From the IMG/VR virus record IMGVR_UViG_3300030109_001961, positions 289-23,518 of that record: a stretch of DNA of 23,230 nucleotides; one strand, given 5' to 3'. The position numbers and the translations under genes are program-made. The first letter of the stretch is position 1. Each line of letters starts with the position of its first letter. Shown here in pieces: positions 2,693 through 8,664 of the stretch. A model generated the notes under the pieces. It had not been told where the DNA came from and searched no databases. It saw only the letters and a list, made by a program, of their open reading frames with translations. This stretch comes from a virus.

Positions 2693-2839
2693 TTAACTTT
2701 TCATGTGCATTATTTTTAATGCTTGTTTTATTCCCCTATCATTTCTAACAACAACTTGAAAATGTTTTTTTGTAGTTTTACTTGGTCTAATTGTCCTCAC
2801 TTTTAGAGTTCCGTATTTGTAAACTATTTTCTTTGACAT
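2693..2839 (-). CDS. Small basic hypothetical protein
   Basis: A 48-residue basic protein, MSKKIVYKYGTLKVRTIRPS through KQALKIMHMKS, with alternating beta-like residues. The ATG at 2839 is the plausible start; an in-frame ATG at 2911 would extend it far into the ArfA-like gene. Its first 53 bases overlap the 3' end of that gene in another frame and no strong ribosome binding site is visible, so it may depend on coupling or may not be translated. No family recognised. Confidence 0.45.
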   Translation of the reverse strand: MSKKIVYKYGTLKVRTIRPSKTTKKHFQVVVRNDRGIKQALKIMHMKS

Positions 2840-2942
2840 TTTTCTGTCGCTCTTTCTTTTTATTATATTTCTTTTTGTTAGGTTTAACCCTATTCCTAAA
2901 GAGTGTAGCATTTAAAACTTTAGCAATAGGGTTAATTTTCAT
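2787..2942 (-). CDS. ArfA-like alternative ribosome-rescue factor
   Basis: A 51-residue very basic protein starting at the ATG at 2942, two bases after the upstream stop. It begins MKINPIAKVLNATLFRNRV and continues with PNKKKYNKKKERQ. This aligns with the core of E. coli ArfA, which reads [20 protein letters not shown] and then a Lys/Gly-rich tail. Shared features are the N-x-I start, the LFRxRV motif, NKK and the basic tail. ArfA recruits release factor RF2 to ribosomes stalled on messages lacking a stop codon, its basic tail entering the empty mRNA channel. Residues after about 35 look unrelated and overlap the next small reading frame. The family call rests on motif similarity recalled from memory, so it needs a profile search. 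Confidence 0.6.
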   Translation of the reverse strand: MKINPIAKVLNATLFRNRVKPNKKKYNKKKERQKNVKENSLQIRNSKSEDN

Positions 2943-2944
2943 GG

Positions 2945-3313
2945 TTAAGCTACTAACTTTTGGAATAGCTTACTCTTGAATGGAACGTACCAAGTGTTTG
3001 ATACTCTAGGCTTACCTTTTCTATTGTAAGCATGGAAAGAGGAAAACCTAGAACCAAAGTTAAACCTAACTAATGGCTCACCACTAATGCCACCATAACC
3101 TTTGCGAATAAACCAACCTTTTTCTTTTATTTTGTTGGCATCACCTTGATAACGAAATGGCTTGTAGCCTTTGTGAAATAGAGATAGAAATTTGAAAACA
3201 ACTAAAGTCAAAACTATTTTGATTGGTGTCAATCCACCTCTTAACTCTAAACCTTTTTCAGTAGGAATAAAACCATTGTTTTCTTCTATCTTATCAAAAT
3301 TAAATATAATCAT
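2945..3313 (-). CDS. Hypothetical protein with one membrane segment
   Basis: A 122-residue protein starting MIIFNFDKIEENNGFIPTEK, with GGAG nine bases before the ATG. One hydrophobic segment, PIKIVLTLVVFKFLSLF (about residues 30-46), is probably a membrane helix, though lysines border it. The C-terminal half is basic and aromatic (KGWFIRKGYGGISGE, then SNTWYVPFKSKLFQKLVA). It is the first full gene after the promoter at 3426-3454, and its ATG overlaps the stop of a 15-codon reading frame in the leader. No family recognised. Confidence 0.75.
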   Translation of the reverse strand: MIIFNFDKIEENNGFIPTEKGLELRGGLTPIKIVLTLVVFKFLSLFHKGYKPFRYQGDANKIKEKGWFIRKGYGGISGEPLVRFNFGSRFSSFHAYNRKGKPRVSNTWYVPFKSKLFQKLVA

Positions 3314-3357
3314 ATTAAATCTCCATTAGTTAATTGTTGGTAACTAGGTAAGTTCAT
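3310..3357 (-). other. Possible leader peptide (15 codons) coupled to the downstream gene
   Basis: An ATG at 3357 opens MNLPSYQQLTNGDLI and stops in a TGA that overlaps the ATG of the 2945-3313 gene (ATGA). The start codon lies exactly in the three-base loop of a hairpin TAAGTT-ATG-AACTTA. No Shine-Dalgarno is obvious. Position and overlap suggest a translated leader controlling the next gene; a chance frame of this length cannot be excluded. Confidence 0.35.
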
Positions 3358-3418
3358 AACTTAATTGTTAGACACTTTTCGTCAATGTAACCACATTGCT
3401 TATCGTTGCACCTAGTTA
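3341..3418 (-). ncRNA. Predicted structured 5' leader RNA (three-way junction)
   Basis: The minus-strand transcript should begin at about 3419. A perfect nine-base-pair outer stem joins 3418-3410 (UAACUAGGU) to 3349-3341 (ACCUAGUUA). Inside are two perfect hairpins: CAAUGU-GGUU-ACAUUG (3398-3383) and UAAGUU-AUG-AACUUA (3363-3349, sharing one base with the outer stem). The stretch between them includes ACGAAAAGUGUC. The fold ends just before the ribosome binding site of the 2945-3313 gene. I do not recognise a known riboswitch class; the hammerhead core CUGAUGA is absent. It may be a cis-regulatory leader or a 5' stabiliser. Confidence 0.5.
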
Positions 3419-3425
3419 TATATAT

Positions 3426-3454
3426 TTTGTATCATACTTTTAAAACATTGTCAA
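3426..3454 (-). promoter_or_regulatory. Leftward sigma70-type promoter of the left arm
   Basis: Perfect TTGACA at 3454-3449, a 17-base spacer, then TACAAA at 3431-3426 (four of six consensus bases), followed by an AT-rich discriminator. The first bases TTGACAATGTTTT match the promoter at 6245. Transcription would begin right at the outer stem of the structured leader and run left through 3313. Confidence 0.65.
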
Positions 3455-3497
3455 CTACTATTTTTTTAATCAATAAAATCAATGGGTTAGTGTCCGT

Positions 3498-3661
3498 CAG
3501 TATCAGTCTTCGTCATACATTTTTTTGTTCCTGTTTCGTTCTCTTGGGTAAGTGTGACATTTTTGCAACAGTATCAGTCTTCGTCAGTATCCGTCCTCGT
3601 CTGACCGTATGTTCACGTTTTGTTCTTTGCCTTATTCTGTTCACGTTTTGTTCTTTTCATA
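3498..3661. repeat. Cluster of repeated boxes upstream of the leftward promoter
   Basis: This gene-free region holds three kinds of box. Box C (CAGTATCAGTCTTCGTCA) occurs exactly at 3498-3515 and 3569-3586, with a diverged copy at 3585-3602, so the last two are in tandem with a 16-base step. Box B (TGTTCACGTTTTGTTCT) occurs exactly at 3610-3626 and 3638-3654, with a 14/17 copy at 3526-3542; on the minus strand it contains GAAC twice, 11 bases apart. Box A is the 21 bases at 3550-3570. Boxes A and B recur in inverted orientation at 6448-6506. They look like binding sites of a regulator or replication protein. Confidence 0.7.
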
Positions 3662-3694
3662 AATAAAAAAAAGCTATCAAATAAATGATAGCTT
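3661..3694 (-). terminator. Intrinsic terminator of the AT-rich cassette
   Basis: On the minus strand AAGCTATCA, a six-base loop and TGATAGCTT form a perfect nine-pair stem (3694-3671), followed at once by a run of T residues ending near 3661. It lies 25 bases after the stop of the last cassette gene (3719) and should end the leftward transcript that begins near 6210, separating it from the 3454 promoter. Confidence 0.85.
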
Positions 3695-3718
3695 ATAAAG
3701 TTTAAGGATTTAAAAAGT

Positions 3719-3898
3719 TTAATTATTTTGAATTAATGTAGCTATTGTATTTCTTAATTCAATTAAATTAACTAATTCATTTTTATTAATTTCTAATTTC
3801 ATTAATTCACTATTTTCTAAATTAGTTATTTCTTTATTTAAAGAATAAAATATTAATTTAGCTTTATATTCATTTAGTTTTAAATTTAAATCTTTCAT
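3719..3898 (-). CDS. Small hypothetical protein of the AT-rich cassette
   Basis: A 59-residue protein, MKDLNLKLNEYKAKLIFYSL through IATLIQNN, starting at the ATG at 3898 after AAAGGATTAAATAAA, the start signal shared by the cassette genes. It is rich in Leu, Asn, Lys, Glu and Ile and almost free of Gly and Pro, consistent with an all-helical, possibly coiled-coil protein. It is the last cassette gene before the terminator. Function unknown. Confidence 0.65.
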   Translation of the reverse strand: MKDLNLKLNEYKAKLIFYSLNKEITNLENSELMKLEINKNELVNLIELRNTIATLIQNN

Positions 3899-3911
3899 TT
3901 TATTTAATCCT

Positions 3912-4769
3912 TTATAAGTTAATTACAAATTTGTTATTATTTAAATCTTTATTATTGCCTTTATAACGCAAACCAACAATAACATTTTTATCATCTAAAA
4001 ATCTTAAATCATGTAAATCGCCATCTATTACTTTTTTATTGTCATAATATTTAGGCAATTTGTCATTACGTTTTACATTAAAAACATATGCTTTATTATT
4101 AGATATATTTTTTATAACATCTTTATTCAATTCATTTCTAGAAATAGTTAAATGATAATTGCCCATATGTTTTATATTTCTATTTAATATTTTAGTATAA
4201 TCATAAAATTGAATATCATTAAACATATTTAAAATATCTTTATTAATCTTTTCGTGTTTAATATCTGATAAAACATTTAATCTAATACATAATTTTACGT
4301 TATCTAATTTATTAACTTTATTTTTATGTAAATTAATTTCTTGAATTAATCTATTTTTAAATTGAGTTCTATATTCAAAATATAAAATAGTTCTTATTAT
4401 TCTAGCTTTTAATACCATATGAATATTATTTTTATTAAGCATATGTTTTGCCCCATGTCCTGTAAAATTTAAACATGACATGCCACATTCTATACTTGCA
4501 TTGGGGCAAGTGTTAAATCCTGATATATAAGATGGGGCAAGTTGTAATCCAATATTATAATATTCATATTTATTGCCCTTTTCTAATTTTGCATTTTTAG
4601 TCAATAGCTTGGGCAATTTGCCCCATATTAAAAAACCTTGTTTATTTGTAGCATTTTTAATTTGTTCATATGCCAATTTTCTATGGTATAAAATAAAGCT
4701 ATCATTATTAAAATGATTTTTTAAATAATTGTTTGCGTGTTTCTGATCTTCTAAATATTGCTTATTCAT
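3912..4769 (-). CDS. Gp88-like conserved phage protein with CxC cluster
   Basis: A 285-residue protein, by far the largest gene of the cassette. Conserved-looking blocks in order are FNTCPNASIECGMSCLNFTG (Cys88, Cys95, Cys99; C-x6-C-x3-C), RLNVLSDI at 163-170, FYDYTK at 188-193, NYHLTISRNE at 204-213, VIDGDLHDLRFLD at 247-259 and IVGLRYKG at 264-271. I recognise this order from a widespread phage family often listed as gene product 88 (first named in mycobacteriophages), of unknown function. The cysteines suggest a metal site. The sequence is unusually AT-rich, with Asn/Lys/Ile replacing residues elsewhere. GGATTTATAAAAATG precedes the start. Confidence 0.7.
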   Translation of the reverse strand: MNKQYLEDQKHANNYLKNHFNNDSFILYHRKLAYEQIKNATNKQGFLIWGKLPKLLTKNAKLEKGNKYEYYNIGLQLAPSYISGFNTCPNASIECGMSCLNFTGHGAKHMLNKNNIHMVLKARIIRTILYFEYRTQFKNRLIQEINLHKNKVNKLDNVKLCIRLNVLSDIKHEKINKDILNMFNDIQFYDYTKILNRNIKHMGNYHLTISRNELNKDVIKNISNNKAYVFNVKRNDKLPKYYDNKKVIDGDLHDLRFLDDKNVIVGLRYKGNNKDLNNNKFVINL

Positions 4770-4785
4770 TTTTATAAATCCTTTT

Positions 4786-4971
4786 CTATTTTTTAACTAG
4801 TTTTAATTTACTTTTCATTAAACTTTTAAATGCATTATCTAATAAAACATCTAAATCTTTTTTATGAATTAATATTTTACCATGTTTAATGTCTTTATCT
4901 ATTGCCATTATAAATTCATGTTTATTACTATGATTAATTTTATAATTTTTATTGTATACACTATAATTCAT
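4786..4971 (-). CDS. Small hypothetical protein of the AT-rich cassette
   Basis: A 61-residue basic protein beginning MNYSVYNKNYKINHSNKHEF and ending LMKSKLKLVKK. It has no membrane segment; the second half looks helical. The ATG at 4971 overlaps the TGA of the upstream gene (ATGA) and follows GGATTTAATAAA, the shared cassette start signal. Not related to any family I know. Confidence 0.65.
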   Translation of the reverse strand: MNYSVYNKNYKINHSNKHEFIMAIDKDIKHGKILIHKKDLDVLLDNAFKSLMKSKLKLVKK

Positions 4972-5174
4972 TTTATTAAATCCTTTTCTAGTTTATTGTT
5001 AAATTCATTTATTAATATTTCATTTTCTATATTATCTAATTCAATTAAATTGTCAATGCCATTTAATATATTATTTTCTTCACTAGGTTTATTAAATATT
5101 TCTATTAAATGATTTACGTTTTTAATAGGTTTATTATTATATTTTATTTCTTTATTGTTATATGTTAAATTCAT
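4968..5174 (-). CDS. Small hypothetical protein of the AT-rich cassette
   Basis: A 68-residue acidic protein, MNLTYNNKEIKYNNKPIKNV to FNNKLEKDLIK. Its last codons (EKDLIK) are themselves the AGAAAAGGATTTAATAAA start signal of the next gene, and its TGA overlaps that gene's ATG. The middle, LIELDNIENEILINEF, is likely helical. No known family; its position in a uniform array of start signals supports translation. Confidence 0.65.
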   Translation of the reverse strand: MNLTYNNKEIKYNNKPIKNVNHLIEIFNKPSEENNILNGIDNLIELDNIENEILINEFNNKLEKDLIK

Positions 5175-5176
5175 TT

Positions 5177-5488
5177 TTATAAATCCTTTTCTAATCTATT
5201 TTTTAAATTATCTATTAGTTTATTTAAATATTCATTTACTAAACTAAACTTATATTTTGCTATCTTTTCAAATTCTTCAACTTCATAATCATATGAAATT
5301 TTTAAATAACTGCATTGTACTTTAAAACTATTATTATAATAATCTGATAAAGACAAACTTTTATTAAACATTTTATCAAAATTCTTTTCATTAAAATAGA
5401 TTTTAAATATATCTTCAAATTCTTTTTGAATGTAATTAAAATTATCATTTACTTTTTTAAATTGTTCTATTTCATATTTATAATTCAT
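5177..5488 (-). CDS. Helical hypothetical protein of the AT-rich cassette
   Basis: A 103-residue protein, MNYKYEIEQFKKVNDNFNYI to LKNRLEKDL, rich in Phe, Tyr, Lys and Glu with a regular helical pattern. It shares the MNY start residues with the 4786-4971 product and the LEKDL tail with the product of 5697-5948. The tail is explained by the overlap with the AGAAAAGGATTTATAA start signal of the next gene. Single cysteine in VQCSYLK. Function unknown. Confidence 0.7.
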   Translation of the reverse strand: MNYKYEIEQFKKVNDNFNYIQKEFEDIFKIYFNEKNFDKMFNKSLSLSDYYNNSFKVQCSYLKISYDYEVEEFEKIAKYKFSLVNEYLNKLIDNLKNRLEKDL

Positions 5489-5502
5489 TTTATTAAATCC
5501 TT

Positions 5503-5694
5503 TTATTTTTTATCTAAATTAGTTATTGTTTGTAAAATTACAATTACTGAAAATAAAATAAATATTGTTGCTGTTGTTGCGATTAACTTTTCATTTAATG
5601 TCATTAAATTAATTGTTGTTGTATTACATAATCTAAATAAATTAAAACCTGTTATTAAATAAATTGTTGCTATTGTTAATTTTAAATATGCCAT
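5503..5694 (-). CDS. Small membrane protein with two helices
   Basis: A 63-residue protein with two hydrophobic segments: LTIATIYLITGFNLFRLC (about 6-23) and LIATTATIFILFSVIVILQT (about 37-56), joined by a short polar loop TTTINLMTLNEK and ending NLDKK. A hairpin in the inner membrane is likely. It is the only membrane protein of the cassette. Two-helix holins or superinfection-exclusion proteins have this architecture, but nothing specific supports either. Starts after GGATTTATAAAAATG. Confidence 0.65.
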   Translation of the reverse strand: MAYLKLTIATIYLITGFNLFRLCNTTTINLMTLNEKLIATTATIFILFSVIVILQTITNLDKK

Positions 5695-5696
5695 TT

Positions 5697-5948
5697 TTAT
5701 AAATCCTTTTCTAAATTGTTAATTGTTGTTGTTAAACTTAAATAATAATATAATATATCTAATTCTTTTTTAATACCATTATTAGATAAATAATTATAAT
5801 CTATTTTCTTTTTTAATTCATTTACAGTTTCAATTAAACTGTTTTCATTTAATTCTATTAACTTTTTTAAACTATCATTAATTCTTAATAATCTTTCATT
5901 TTCTATTATTAATTCTTTTTTACTTAATTTATTTTCTATTACTAACAT
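5697..5948 (-). CDS. Coiled-coil-like protein of the AT-rich cassette
   Basis: An 83-residue protein starting MLVIENKLSKKELIIENERL at the ATG at 5948, which follows AGAAAAGGATTTAATATA; an upstream ATG at 6029 lacks this signal and overlaps the preceding gene. Heptad-like Leu/Ile spacing through about residue 50 (RINDSLKKLIELNE) suggests a coiled coil. The C-terminal NNLEKDL is encoded by the next gene's start signal. Function unknown. Confidence 0.65.
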   Translation of the reverse strand: MLVIENKLSKKELIIENERLLRINDSLKKLIELNENSLIETVNELKKKIDYNYLSNNGIKKELDILYYYLSLTTTINNLEKDL

Positions 5949-5976
5949 TATATTAAATCCTTTTCTATGTTTAAAA

Positions 5977-6180
5977 TTAAAATTCAAAATCAATAAATAC
6001 TTTTTTACTAGGTTTAACAAATCTTTCACTATTCATGTCATGCCATTTAGAAATAGAATATTCATTATAACCTTTTAAATAATGATTAATATAATAAACT
6101 GTATTGCTATTTTCATTTAATTTGAAATATTTAATATTAAGTTTATTTATATTTCTTATTTCAGTATATTGATTATTCAT
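5977..6180 (-). CDS. Small hypothetical protein, first gene of the AT-rich cassette
   Basis: A 67-residue protein, MNNQYTEIRNINKLNIKYFK to SKKVFIDFEF, with the aromatic stretch TVYYINHYLKGYNEYSISKW. It begins after AAGGATTTAATAAA, about 30 bases from the predicted start of transcription, so its leader is very short. It ends 28 bases before the next gene, the widest gap inside the cassette apart from the gp88-like region. No family recognised. Confidence 0.65.
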   Translation of the reverse strand: MNNQYTEIRNINKLNIKYFKLNENSNTVYYINHYLKGYNEYSISKWHDMNSERFVKPSKKVFIDFEF

Positions 6181-6216
6181 TTTATTAAATCCTTAATTTG
6201 TTAATTTTATAATTAT

Positions 6217-6245
6217 AAATTACTATGTATAAAAAACATTGTCAA
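6217..6245 (-). promoter_or_regulatory. Leftward promoter of the AT-rich cassette
   Basis: Perfect TTGACA at 6245-6240 with TAATTT 17 bases on (6222-6217); a perfect TATAAT at 6217-6212 would need a 22-base spacer. The start TTGTTGACAATGTTTT is almost identical to the promoter at 3454. It lies 37 bases upstream of the first cassette gene. Confidence 0.55.
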
Positions 6246-6371
6246 CAAGTTTTTTTATATGGTTATAGTTTTTTTATGTAAATAAATATAGATATATATT
6301 TCATACATAATCTTTTACTCTATAAACATTTTTATATTAACCTAGTTTAATGAATACATATTAATCTATTT

Positions 6372-6388
6372 ACTGTTATGATAACAGT
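6372..6388. promoter_or_regulatory. 17-base perfect palindrome, operator-like
   Basis: ACTGTTAT-G-ATAACAGT is a perfect inverted repeat with one central base, in an otherwise AT-rich gene-free stretch about 130 bases upstream of the cassette promoter. The size and symmetry suit a dimeric repressor or activator. No second copy was found in the window by eye. Bases 6181-6448 contain no other gene that I can see. Confidence 0.45.
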
Positions 6389-6447
6389 TTATATAATTCT
6401 TTTAATCCTTATTATACAACAAATAATCTTAAAAATGTTACAAACTG

Positions 6448-6506
6448 TATGAGAAGAACAAACCATGAACAAATTCTGACCGAAGTGTTGCAAAAATGTC
6501 ACACTT
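6448..6506. repeat. Inverted copy of boxes A and B upstream of the rightward promoter
   Basis: Bases 6486-6506 are the exact reverse complement of 3550-3570 (21 of 21, box A). Bases 6448-6470 match the reverse complement of 3639-3661 at 20 of 23 positions and contain a box B copy (6455-6471, 15/17 to the left consensus). A short TGACCGAAG between them resembles a fragment of box C. The two regions therefore form an inverted pair around the AT-rich cassette, each facing its own outward promoter. Confidence 0.75.
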
Positions 6507-6538
6507 TATTTTGCCTACACGCCACAGCCACTAGGGGG

Positions 6539-6594
6539 GTATACGTATACGTGTATGGACTATGCAACAGATGGGATAATAGGGTGGTAACCAC
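6539..6594. promoter_or_regulatory. Two short palindromes upstream of the rightward promoter
   Basis: GTATACGTATAC (6539-6550) is a perfect 12-base palindrome directly after a run of six G. GTGGT-A-ACCAC (6584-6594) is a second inverted repeat. Both lie 70-130 bases upstream of the TTGACA at 6666 and are more GC-rich than their surroundings, which suits protein-binding sites. No function is proven. A weak 53-codon frame (6449-6610, plus) crosses this stretch. Confidence 0.35.
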
Positions 6595-6665
6595 AGGTAT
6601 GAACAGTTAAATGCTTAAAAACAGTGACATATATACAACACTAGTAATATATTTTTATTAGGGGG

Positions 6666-6694
6666 TTGACAAGGCACATAAAACCGGGTATAAT
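6666..6694 (+). promoter_or_regulatory. Perfect-consensus rightward promoter of the right arm
   Basis: TTGACA (6666-6671), a 17-base spacer and TATAAT (6689-6694) match the sigma70 consensus at every position and in spacing. It is the only gap promoter ahead of the long rightward gene array beginning near 6813. Such a strong promoter would need regulation to be timed, and the boxes upstream and repeats downstream are candidate sites. Confidence 0.85.
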
Positions 6695-6705
6695 TACATA
6701 TATTA

Positions 6706-6763
6706 ACCATTTAGATGTTACACTTAAATATATAATAACACTTAAATACTACATTTAAATGGT
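6706..6763 (+). repeat. CACTTAAATA repeats inside an inverted repeat in the leader
   Basis: ACACTTAAATA occurs exactly at 6720-6730 and 6738-6748 (18-base step), with diverged versions at 6750-6760 (TACATTTAAAT) and near 6798. They are enclosed by ACCATTTA (6706-6713) and TAAATGGT (6756-6763), a perfect eight-base inverted repeat. They lie just downstream of the predicted transcription start and could be operators or an RNA structure in the leader. Confidence 0.5.
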
Positions 6764-6821
6764 AAAAATAAGGTAGTTAATATAAATATACCTATTCGTA
6801 TTTAAATAAGACTTGACTTTC

Positions 6822-7670: not shown

Positions 7671-8381
7671 ATGCCGTATCTCATAAGTAACGTACCCCAT
7701 TTTCATTGTTGGGTACGGAAAGAGTTTACGTCTAATCATTTAAAATATCATGGTGAGTTTATACACGCAATGGTATTCGCAGTTAATACTATACCTGACA
7801 GGTCGTTAAGTTTTCAACTTGTATTTACAGGTTGTGAAGCTGACTTTGAAGATGGACCTGAAACAAACATACATGGTGGAGCAATGTGGGCTAGGATGCC
7901 GATACAAGCACTCGTAGCCGACATTCCACTAGATGAATGGTCAGACCCTATGGAAGACCATTTAGCACAACCTTGGGATTGTGAGTCAAGAAATCACAGT
8001 GTAGTCGTAATGGACAGAGTAAGTTCTAGCCCTTGGCTTTGTAAGATTGGTGGAGATTTTTACAAAGGAAAATATTTATTTACAGTTGACTACACTGATA
8101 GCGACATAGCAGATGACCCTGCTCAACATAAACAGTCGCATGTTTTATATCTGCTAGATGCAGGGAAATGGACAGGAAATCTTGTTGCCCTACCTAATAA
8201 TCGAGTCCGTGCGACAAGCCCTGCATTGTGGGCTACTGGGGAAGGTGCTCCGGATTTTACGCCATCTCAGTGGACACACTCAGCAGAAAGCCACGAAAGC
8301 TATCTAGACCCTAGTACAACATTTGATAACTTATATAATGACAACAAAGAAAAAAAGAGACCCAAAAGTAGGAACAGGTAA
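7671..8381 (+). CDS. Conserved-type phage hypothetical protein
   Basis: A 236-residue protein starting three bases after the previous stop. It begins MPYLISNVPHFHCWVRKEFT, continues with HGEFIHAMVFAVNTI and HGGAMWARMPIQALVADIPL and is rich in Trp, His and Asp in the middle. The C-terminus (NDNKEKKRPKSRNR) is basic. The folded, mixed composition differs from the small basic neighbours and suggests a globular protein, perhaps an enzyme or virion component. I recall similar sequences only as hypothetical proteins of marine phages. Its last 44 bases overlap the next gene. Confidence 0.8.
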   Translation: MPYLISNVPHFHCWVRKEFTSNHLKYHGEFIHAMVFAVNTIPDRSLSFQLVFTGCEADFEDGPETNIHGGAMWARMPIQALVADIPLDEWSDPMEDHLAQPWDCESRNHSVVVMDRVSSSPWLCKIGGDFYKGKYLFTVDYTDSDIADDPAQHKQSHVLYLLDAGKWTGNLVALPNNRVRATSPALWATGEGAPDFTPSQWTHSAESHESYLDPSTTFDNLYNDNKEKKRPKSRNR

Positions 8382-8664
8382 AAAGCCTAAAGGTTCGGAT
8401 AGAAGACTTTATACGGATGAAAATCCAAAAGATACAGTTCGTATAAAGTTTGCTACACCTGCAGATGCACGAGCAACTGTGGCTAAAGTAAAAAAACTAA
8501 ATAAACCTTATGCACGGAAAATACAAATACTAACTGTGGGCGAACAAAGAGCAAAGGTTATGGGTAAGACAGAAGTCGTTGCCATATTTAAAAAAGCAAA
8601 AGAAAGTTTAAAAAGAGAAAATGACAGAAAAAGCAAAAAAGACAATAAAAAAAGTAGCAAGTAA
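8338..8664 (+). CDS. Basic hypothetical protein
   Basis: A 108-residue Lys-rich protein starting MTTKKKRDPKVGTGKKPKGS at the ATG at 8338, inside the end of the preceding gene; an in-frame TTG at 8323 is a less likely start. The central part, IKFATPADARATVAKVKKLN then ARKIQILTVGEQRAKVMG, looks like a small alpha/beta fold. The tail is KKDNKKSSK. No family recognised; the charge suggests contact with nucleic acid. Confidence 0.7.
   Translation: MTTKKKRDPKVGTGKKPKGSDRRLYTDENPKDTVRIKFATPADARATVAKVKKLNKPYARKIQILTVGEQRAKVMGKTEVVAIFKKAKESLKRENDRKSKKDNKKSSK

Follow-up and report, generated by a model that had tools for sequence, protein, structure and literature searches.

Organization of the left arm

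The window, by which we mean the whole 23,230-nucleotide stretch of DNA analysed here, corresponds to positions 289-23518 of a viral record 23,518 bases long. Its terminase shares 81.5% identity with the enzyme of Puniceispirillum phage HMO-2011 and 80-81% with those of Roseobacter phages CRP-1 and CRP-345, so that the phage is, judged from sequence, a marine podophage of the HMO-2011 type. Its left arm is transcribed from the minus strand, on which all the features listed next are read. An A+T-rich block of genes (6180-3912) ends at an intrinsic-terminator-like hairpin (3671-3694) that divides it from the transcript of interest. Beyond the hairpin lie a control region (about 3420-3670), a promoter-like site TTGACA-17-TACAAA (3426-3454), a leader element of 78 nt (3341-3418), the GGAG ribosome-binding site at 3321-3324 and a 122-amino-acid open reading frame, ORF122 (2945-3313), with its ATG at 3313. 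An earlier note on this DNA had taken the gene behind the leader to be the first of the left arm, which is incorrect given the upstream block at 6180-3912; it is first only after the terminator at 3694-3671. ORF122 has no family in Pfam or PHROGs. It has one clear relative in L037 (41% over 77 amino acids) and a doubtful one in L133, the early ORF of which gave a BLASTP E value of 0.004 for one pair and may be a remote relative of ORF122, an assignment that is not firm.

The related locus L009 lies with L041 on one 110,914-base contig, which seems to join two phage genomes because it carries two different HMO-2011-type hydrolase genes and two control regions. The terminator and control region of the window are alike in L009 at about 79% identity, and the terminator stem is conserved there. 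There are three GTTC-N7-GTTC boxes in the left control region (3527-3541, 3611-3625 and 3639-3653, together spanning 3527-3653), against 0.03 expected in 3400-3700, and all three are kept in L009. A further box at 6456-6470 means that both control regions have this sequence, which we take to be the alphaproteobacterial LexA (SOS) site; the boxes suggest that both arms are under SOS or LexA-like control. The left (3550-3570) and right (6486-6506) control regions also share the 21-base sequence AAGTGTGACATTTTTGCAACA, identical but in opposite orientation, and a similar sequence is present in L178, another phage of the group. Three copies of an iteron- or operator-like 26-nt repeat around CAGTATCAGTCTTCGTC occupy 3489-3601, and a perfect sigma-70 consensus promoter, TTGACA-17-TATAAT, stands ahead of the right-arm genes at 6666-6694.

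Closing stem and predicted fold of the leader

On the minus strand, 5'-UAACUAGGU (3418-3410) and ACCUAGUUA-3' (3349-3341) form a perfect nine-pair inverted repeat, P1, around an interior of 60 nt. Fold prediction gives its pairs probabilities of 0.8-1.0, so that the perfect nine-pair closing stem described previously at 3341-3418 is borne out. The two perfect hairpins said to lie within it fared differently from one another. P2, CAAUGU-GGUU-ACAUUG (3398-3383), does have six perfect pairs, with probabilities of 0.7-0.8. P3 (3350-3377), which adjoins the 3' arm of P1 and stacks on it, takes the form AAGUgUCUAAC-AAUUAA-GUUAuGAACUU in the minimum-energy fold, with ten pairs, two bulges and probabilities of 0.35-0.81; the alternative UAAGUU-AUG-AACUUA has six perfect pairs but is not the minimum-energy choice. 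The modelled three-way junction is thus partly a matter of choice. From the 3' end of P1 it is 16 nt to the GGAG (3324-3321) and 28 nt to the ATG, and a separate A+U-rich hairpin (about 3285-3322, minus strand) is predicted to take in the GGAG together with the start codon and first codons of ORF122.

The leader was also said to begin exactly at the transcription start. A promoter-like site at 3454-3426 does adjoin it, with a predicted start at about 3419, but the exactness is a matter of prediction: because the -10 sequence TACAAA is poor, the start can only be guessed to within about 13 nt of P1, which we regard as a fair guess from sequence. The consensus promoter scan did not list the site; the aligned site in L009 reads TTGACG-17-TAGAAA. 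A 24-nt match to the promoter in the record of L016 proved to be coding sequence.

All comparisons with chance have to be read with the knowledge that the leader was picked by a reader who had the whole window in view. The 78 nt fold with z = -2.0 (5 of 200 shuffles), the opposite strand of the same 78 nt folds alike with z = -2.8, and the full 125-nt UTR gives z = -0.5. By itself the 60-nt interior is no better than its shuffles (z = -0.18), and P2 likewise does not go beyond chance. Among Markov versions of the UTR plus promoter (147 nt), 1% contained a stem of at least nine pairs with at least three G-C pairs, and 4.6% a nine-pair stem of any composition. Given these values for the UTR, the interior and the stem, only the closing stem stands out.

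One alternative is that P1 is a chance inverted repeat that arose because the intergenic DNA is rich in A+T, that it serves no function, and that the hairpins it encloses are ordinary ones. The window contains fifteen nine-pair repeats at P1-like spacing, which together with the z values for interior and UTR, the absence of P1 from L009 and the failure to find a homologue in the searches described below favours such an explanation. On the other hand, stems with at least three G-C pairs are rare (in 2700-6800, 3 seen against 0.09 expected, besides the 1% in the UTR simulations), P1 is placed exactly in the leader, and related phages have, in their early leaders, a covarying RNA that is closed by these very nine-base arms. 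We consider chance rather unlikely, while giving it real weight.

P1 could also act as DNA, if TAACTAGGT and its inverse were two sites for a phage repressor or activator, one of them over the transcription start, with the RNA fold as a by-product. In its favour, the arms are close to being palindromes (AACTAGGT/ACCTAGTT), the two strands give similar folds, and operator-like repeats abound upstream. AACTAGGT occurs five times in the window against 1.0 expected, and a third intergenic copy (6340-6347) lies in the other control region. However, two of the five copies are in coding sequence, there is no excess at one mismatch (11 against 9.3), and L009 retains the control region without the arm. 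The outer P1 pairs of the covarying RNA moreover change in concert, one position having C-G, G-C and U-A, and a site read as DNA would have no need of such changes. We judge a DNA dyad to be improbable.

Relatives of the leader

The L009 homology stops at window position 3416, which is within the first bases of the leader; beyond it L009 has a short UTR and then a different small ORF, and the leader is absent. Because the homology breaks there, with another UTR and ORF beyond, the leader and ORF122 appear to be a swapped cassette. In searches of viral contigs, phages and related loci, no homologue of the leader was found by DNA, through the protein relatives of ORF122, by junction pattern in viral contigs, or with a single-sequence covariance model run on 61 sources (0.73 Mb of related loci); the next match of that model, at CRP-1 1293-1347 (E 0.76), is inside coding sequence. 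In the searches run, the interior was conserved nowhere. A general scan for closed leaders gave mostly chance matches in coding DNA, together with one tRNA (L015) that served as a positive control.

The leader had been said to belong to no recognised RNA class, and this holds against the covariance models of Rfam, none of which matched at the curated threshold or at a permissive one. PMC6918029 reports that CRP-3, a member of the same phage group, integrates into tRNA-Met; ARAGORN found no tRNA in the leader, which is thus not recognised as a tRNA or a tRNA-derived attP site.

When 2.9 million viral contigs were scanned for the arms themselves, as TAACTAGGT-N45..75-ACCTAGTTA, 12 matches came up, of which about seven to eight are independent. 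Those in L124, L126, L128, L129, L131, L132, L134 and L135 are repeats, coding or unrelated. The remaining group, L133, L125, L127 and L130, is from an HMO-2011-like phage, where an early ORF has the repeat in its 5' UTR.

A probable RNA element with the same closing stem

Relatives of that early ORF and a search with the core pattern yielded further copies of what we call element E, in seven distinct sequences: L133 (4328-4402), L155 (6484-6556), L149, L148, L152, L153 and L157. In all seven, E is on the sense strand of the early gene that follows, the start of which is 100-190 nt away (L152 left out). The element is 75 nt long in L133, and the commonest form of its P1 is AACUAGGU/ACCUAGUU. 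Its architecture comprises P1, an inner stem (GCAGaUAY/RUACUGC) set flush on the 3' arm of P1, and an H-type pseudoknot (ACUYC/GGAGU) in which the loop of the inner stem pairs with the bases that follow P1, with an invariant 26-nt core, CAGUUGAAAUACUAUAAYAGACAAGG. In a gap-free alignment, 5 of the 20 pairs, distributed over all three helices, are changed on both sides, and 95% of cells pair, whereas versions slid against each other pair at 19-43%. Pseudoknot pairs vary as C-G, U-G and U-A. The covariation score exceeded that of all 500 shuffles, a control that overstates significance because the seven sequences are related. The leaders of L137 and L140 contain E; those of L138, L139 and L143, otherwise alike, do not, and in L142 a different closed module sits in its place. 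The E of L133 lies about 120 nt downstream of a likely promoter, TTGACT-17-TATACT, so a 5'-terminal place is not general.

An open frame (VLQLKYYNRQGRYSGVKGTAPS) in which the differences between two copies fell mostly in third positions had suggested that E might be a coding or attP fragment. This idea was rejected: L133 has a stop codon where the frame would begin, L148 and L157 have non-synonymous changes, the double changes track the pairing, and neither the peptide nor the DNA of E was found in 84,980 genomes. Against Rfam at E <= 1, E had no match, the only hits being chance microRNA matches elsewhere. We do not count as a copy an E-like sequence in HMO-2011 itself (L003 10219-10293; 19 bits, E 1.6 over 0.71 Mb), whose inner stem contains mismatches. 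We consider it likely that element E is a real RNA, hitherto undescribed. It was found through the stem of the window and is better supported than the leader of the window.

Several other modules were seen in these early leaders. Directly after E, L152 (about 8493-8565) and L153 (about 7841-7915) have a module F (GTGTGGTTAAG...CTTAACCACAC), and in L142 (about 3865-3945) a module G (ATGTGG...CCACAT) replaces E; both have a pseudoknot layout. Module D, an H-type pseudoknot of AGGC/GCCU with GARCAGU/ACUGYUC (L137, 3944-3980, and at the same place in L138-L144, L157 and L148), adjoins the ribosome-binding site of the early ORF and is kept also where E is missing; as an RNA it is weakly supported, by covariation at one pair only. 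Further along, an intergenic stretch ...LPNNEMYGLLDDYKSAHTAVDRQGKDRWLCCCWRSW is identical in the diverged phages L148, L160, L149 and L151 (about +963 to +987 from E) and L133 (+1085), and may be a tiny protein or another RNA module.

The leader of the window and element E

The P1 of the window is letter for letter the commonest P1 of E, an identity that we infer is unlikely to be pure chance (by a rough estimate, below 1%). Identity of P1 alone does not make the leader a member of E. With default filters the covariance model of E found nothing in the window at E <= 10, and the 11.5 bits that it does obtain there come through P1 alone and are equal on both strands. The 26-nt core is absent. 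The pseudoknot layout fits the interior of the window no better than it fits shuffles (54 of 200); in the same comparison copies of E gave 0 to 1 of 200, module F gave 0 and module G gave 5.

The leader might nevertheless be a diverged or chimeric E in which the interior was replaced and P1 kept as a shared recognition part. Apart from P1, the two are of similar length (78 nt against 75 nt in L133) and both occupy an early 5' UTR in HMO-2011-like phages; E was discovered solely by searching with the P1 of the window, and such arms at such spacing are rare in 2.9 million viral contigs. The match of the E model by P1 only, the missing core and the poor pseudoknot fit all stand against a chimera, which we regard as very unlikely. 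A broader possibility, of a new class of P1-closed cis-acting leader RNAs that are exchanged as cassettes (E, F and G) and of which the leader of the window would be a variant with another interior, is to us doubtful. That E by itself is real and undescribed is much likelier than that the leader of the window belongs with it.

Proposed role of the leader

Our tentative proposal, which we hold with somewhat less than even confidence, is that 3341-3418 is a cis-acting 5' leader of the left-arm (early) mRNA, a modular 5'-terminal structure that is probably a stabiliser or a modulator of translation. RppH and RNase E, or RNase J, need an unpaired 5' end. The RNA would begin at or within about 13 nt of P1, and P1 would close the 5' end into a compact structure ending 16 nt before the ribosome-binding site, which could protect that end from end-dependent decay and prevent leader sequence from base-pairing with the start region of the gene. 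A protein may also bind it. The leader would then be one of several unrelated structured modules that are gained and lost at the same place in phages of the HMO-2011 type. The transcription start, the action at the level of RNA and the stabilising function all enter this proposal as predictions.

In its favour, a stem of a kind found in about 1% of simulated sequences sits 16 nt before the GGAG, and modules are exchanged at this place, as seen in L009, which is without the leader of the window, and in the presence or absence of E among L137-L143. The alike folding of the 78 nt on both strands and the z values of the interior and the UTR count against it, as does the fact that L009 and six of the ten cultured relatives examined manage without such a structure. 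Also against it are that the searches gave no homologue in which covariation might show, and that in L133 element E sits well inside its likely transcript. The claim that a structured leader lies here is accordingly plausible, with closed leaders in four cultured relatives and a covarying RNA with the same P1 in related phages on its side and those six relatives on the other.

Closed leaders that stop shortly ahead of an early gene's ribosome-binding site were found in HMO-2011 (z = -5.6), CRP-1 (-4.8), CRP-345 (-4.4) and CRP-9 (-3.1), whereas CRP-603, CRP-2, CRP-207, HTVC033P, HTVC104P and CRP-235 had no structure below z = -2 (z = -1.6 to 0.8). Between CRP-1 and CRP-345 the leader stem has one double change that keeps the pairing. 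Because the antisense strand folds equally well or better in several cultured relatives, a DNA or bidirectional role is possible for their leaders. Searched for the words promoter, noncoding and hairpin, PMC9038755 and PMC6918029 do not describe these leaders as RNA elements, and on the phages of this type the two papers say nothing of promoters or non-coding RNA.

A regulatory RNA proper, either a ligand riboswitch or a polymerase-binding antitermination RNA like HK022 put, is a further alternative. The leader is located at the predicted start of an early transcript, and a switch would be possible through pairing of the 3' arm of P1 with a UAACUA that precedes the ribosome-binding site. In the simplest form of the riboswitch that the earlier note had listed among its suggestions, P1 would control the ribosome-binding site, and this fails in silico: in the models the GGAG is equally paired whether the leader is intact or truncated by 9 to 68 nt, which gives a simple riboswitch no support. 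Downstream, no terminator that could act as an expression platform was found, Rfam gave no match, and the interior is nowhere conserved. We think a regulatory RNA of either kind hardly probable.

For the window alone the claim is a modest one, of one good stem rightly placed. Phages of the HMO-2011 type are among the most abundant in the ocean. If folded modules that can be exchanged do stand at the head of their early mRNAs, then mRNA stability or RNA-binding factors may set the level of early expression in slow-growing marine hosts. Element E would be a new RNA class for Rfam, with a partner protein or ligand to look for.

Comparison with known systems

Our preferred reading, a stabilising or translation-modulating leader, has a general model in the 5' stem-loops of the ompA type that stabilise mRNAs. 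These likewise place a structure at or near the 5' end and then a ribosome-binding site; their fold and sequence differ from those of the leader of the window. HK022 put is likewise a structured RNA of about 70-80 nt that opens an early phage transcript, but it consists of two hairpins without an enclosing stem, unlike the leader of the window. Among phages of the same type, the leaders before HMO-2011 gp74, CRP-1 gp01 and CRP-345 gp01 and that of CRP-9 share with the window a closing stem that ends before the ribosome-binding site of an early gene. They are much longer and stabler (about -37 to -40 kcal/mol), mostly one long hairpin, and no sequence similarity to the window was noticed. Element E is like the leader of the window in the letters of P1, in length and in its place in the early 5' UTR of an HMO-2011-like phage, and differs from it in having the pseudoknot, the inner stem and the 26-nt core.
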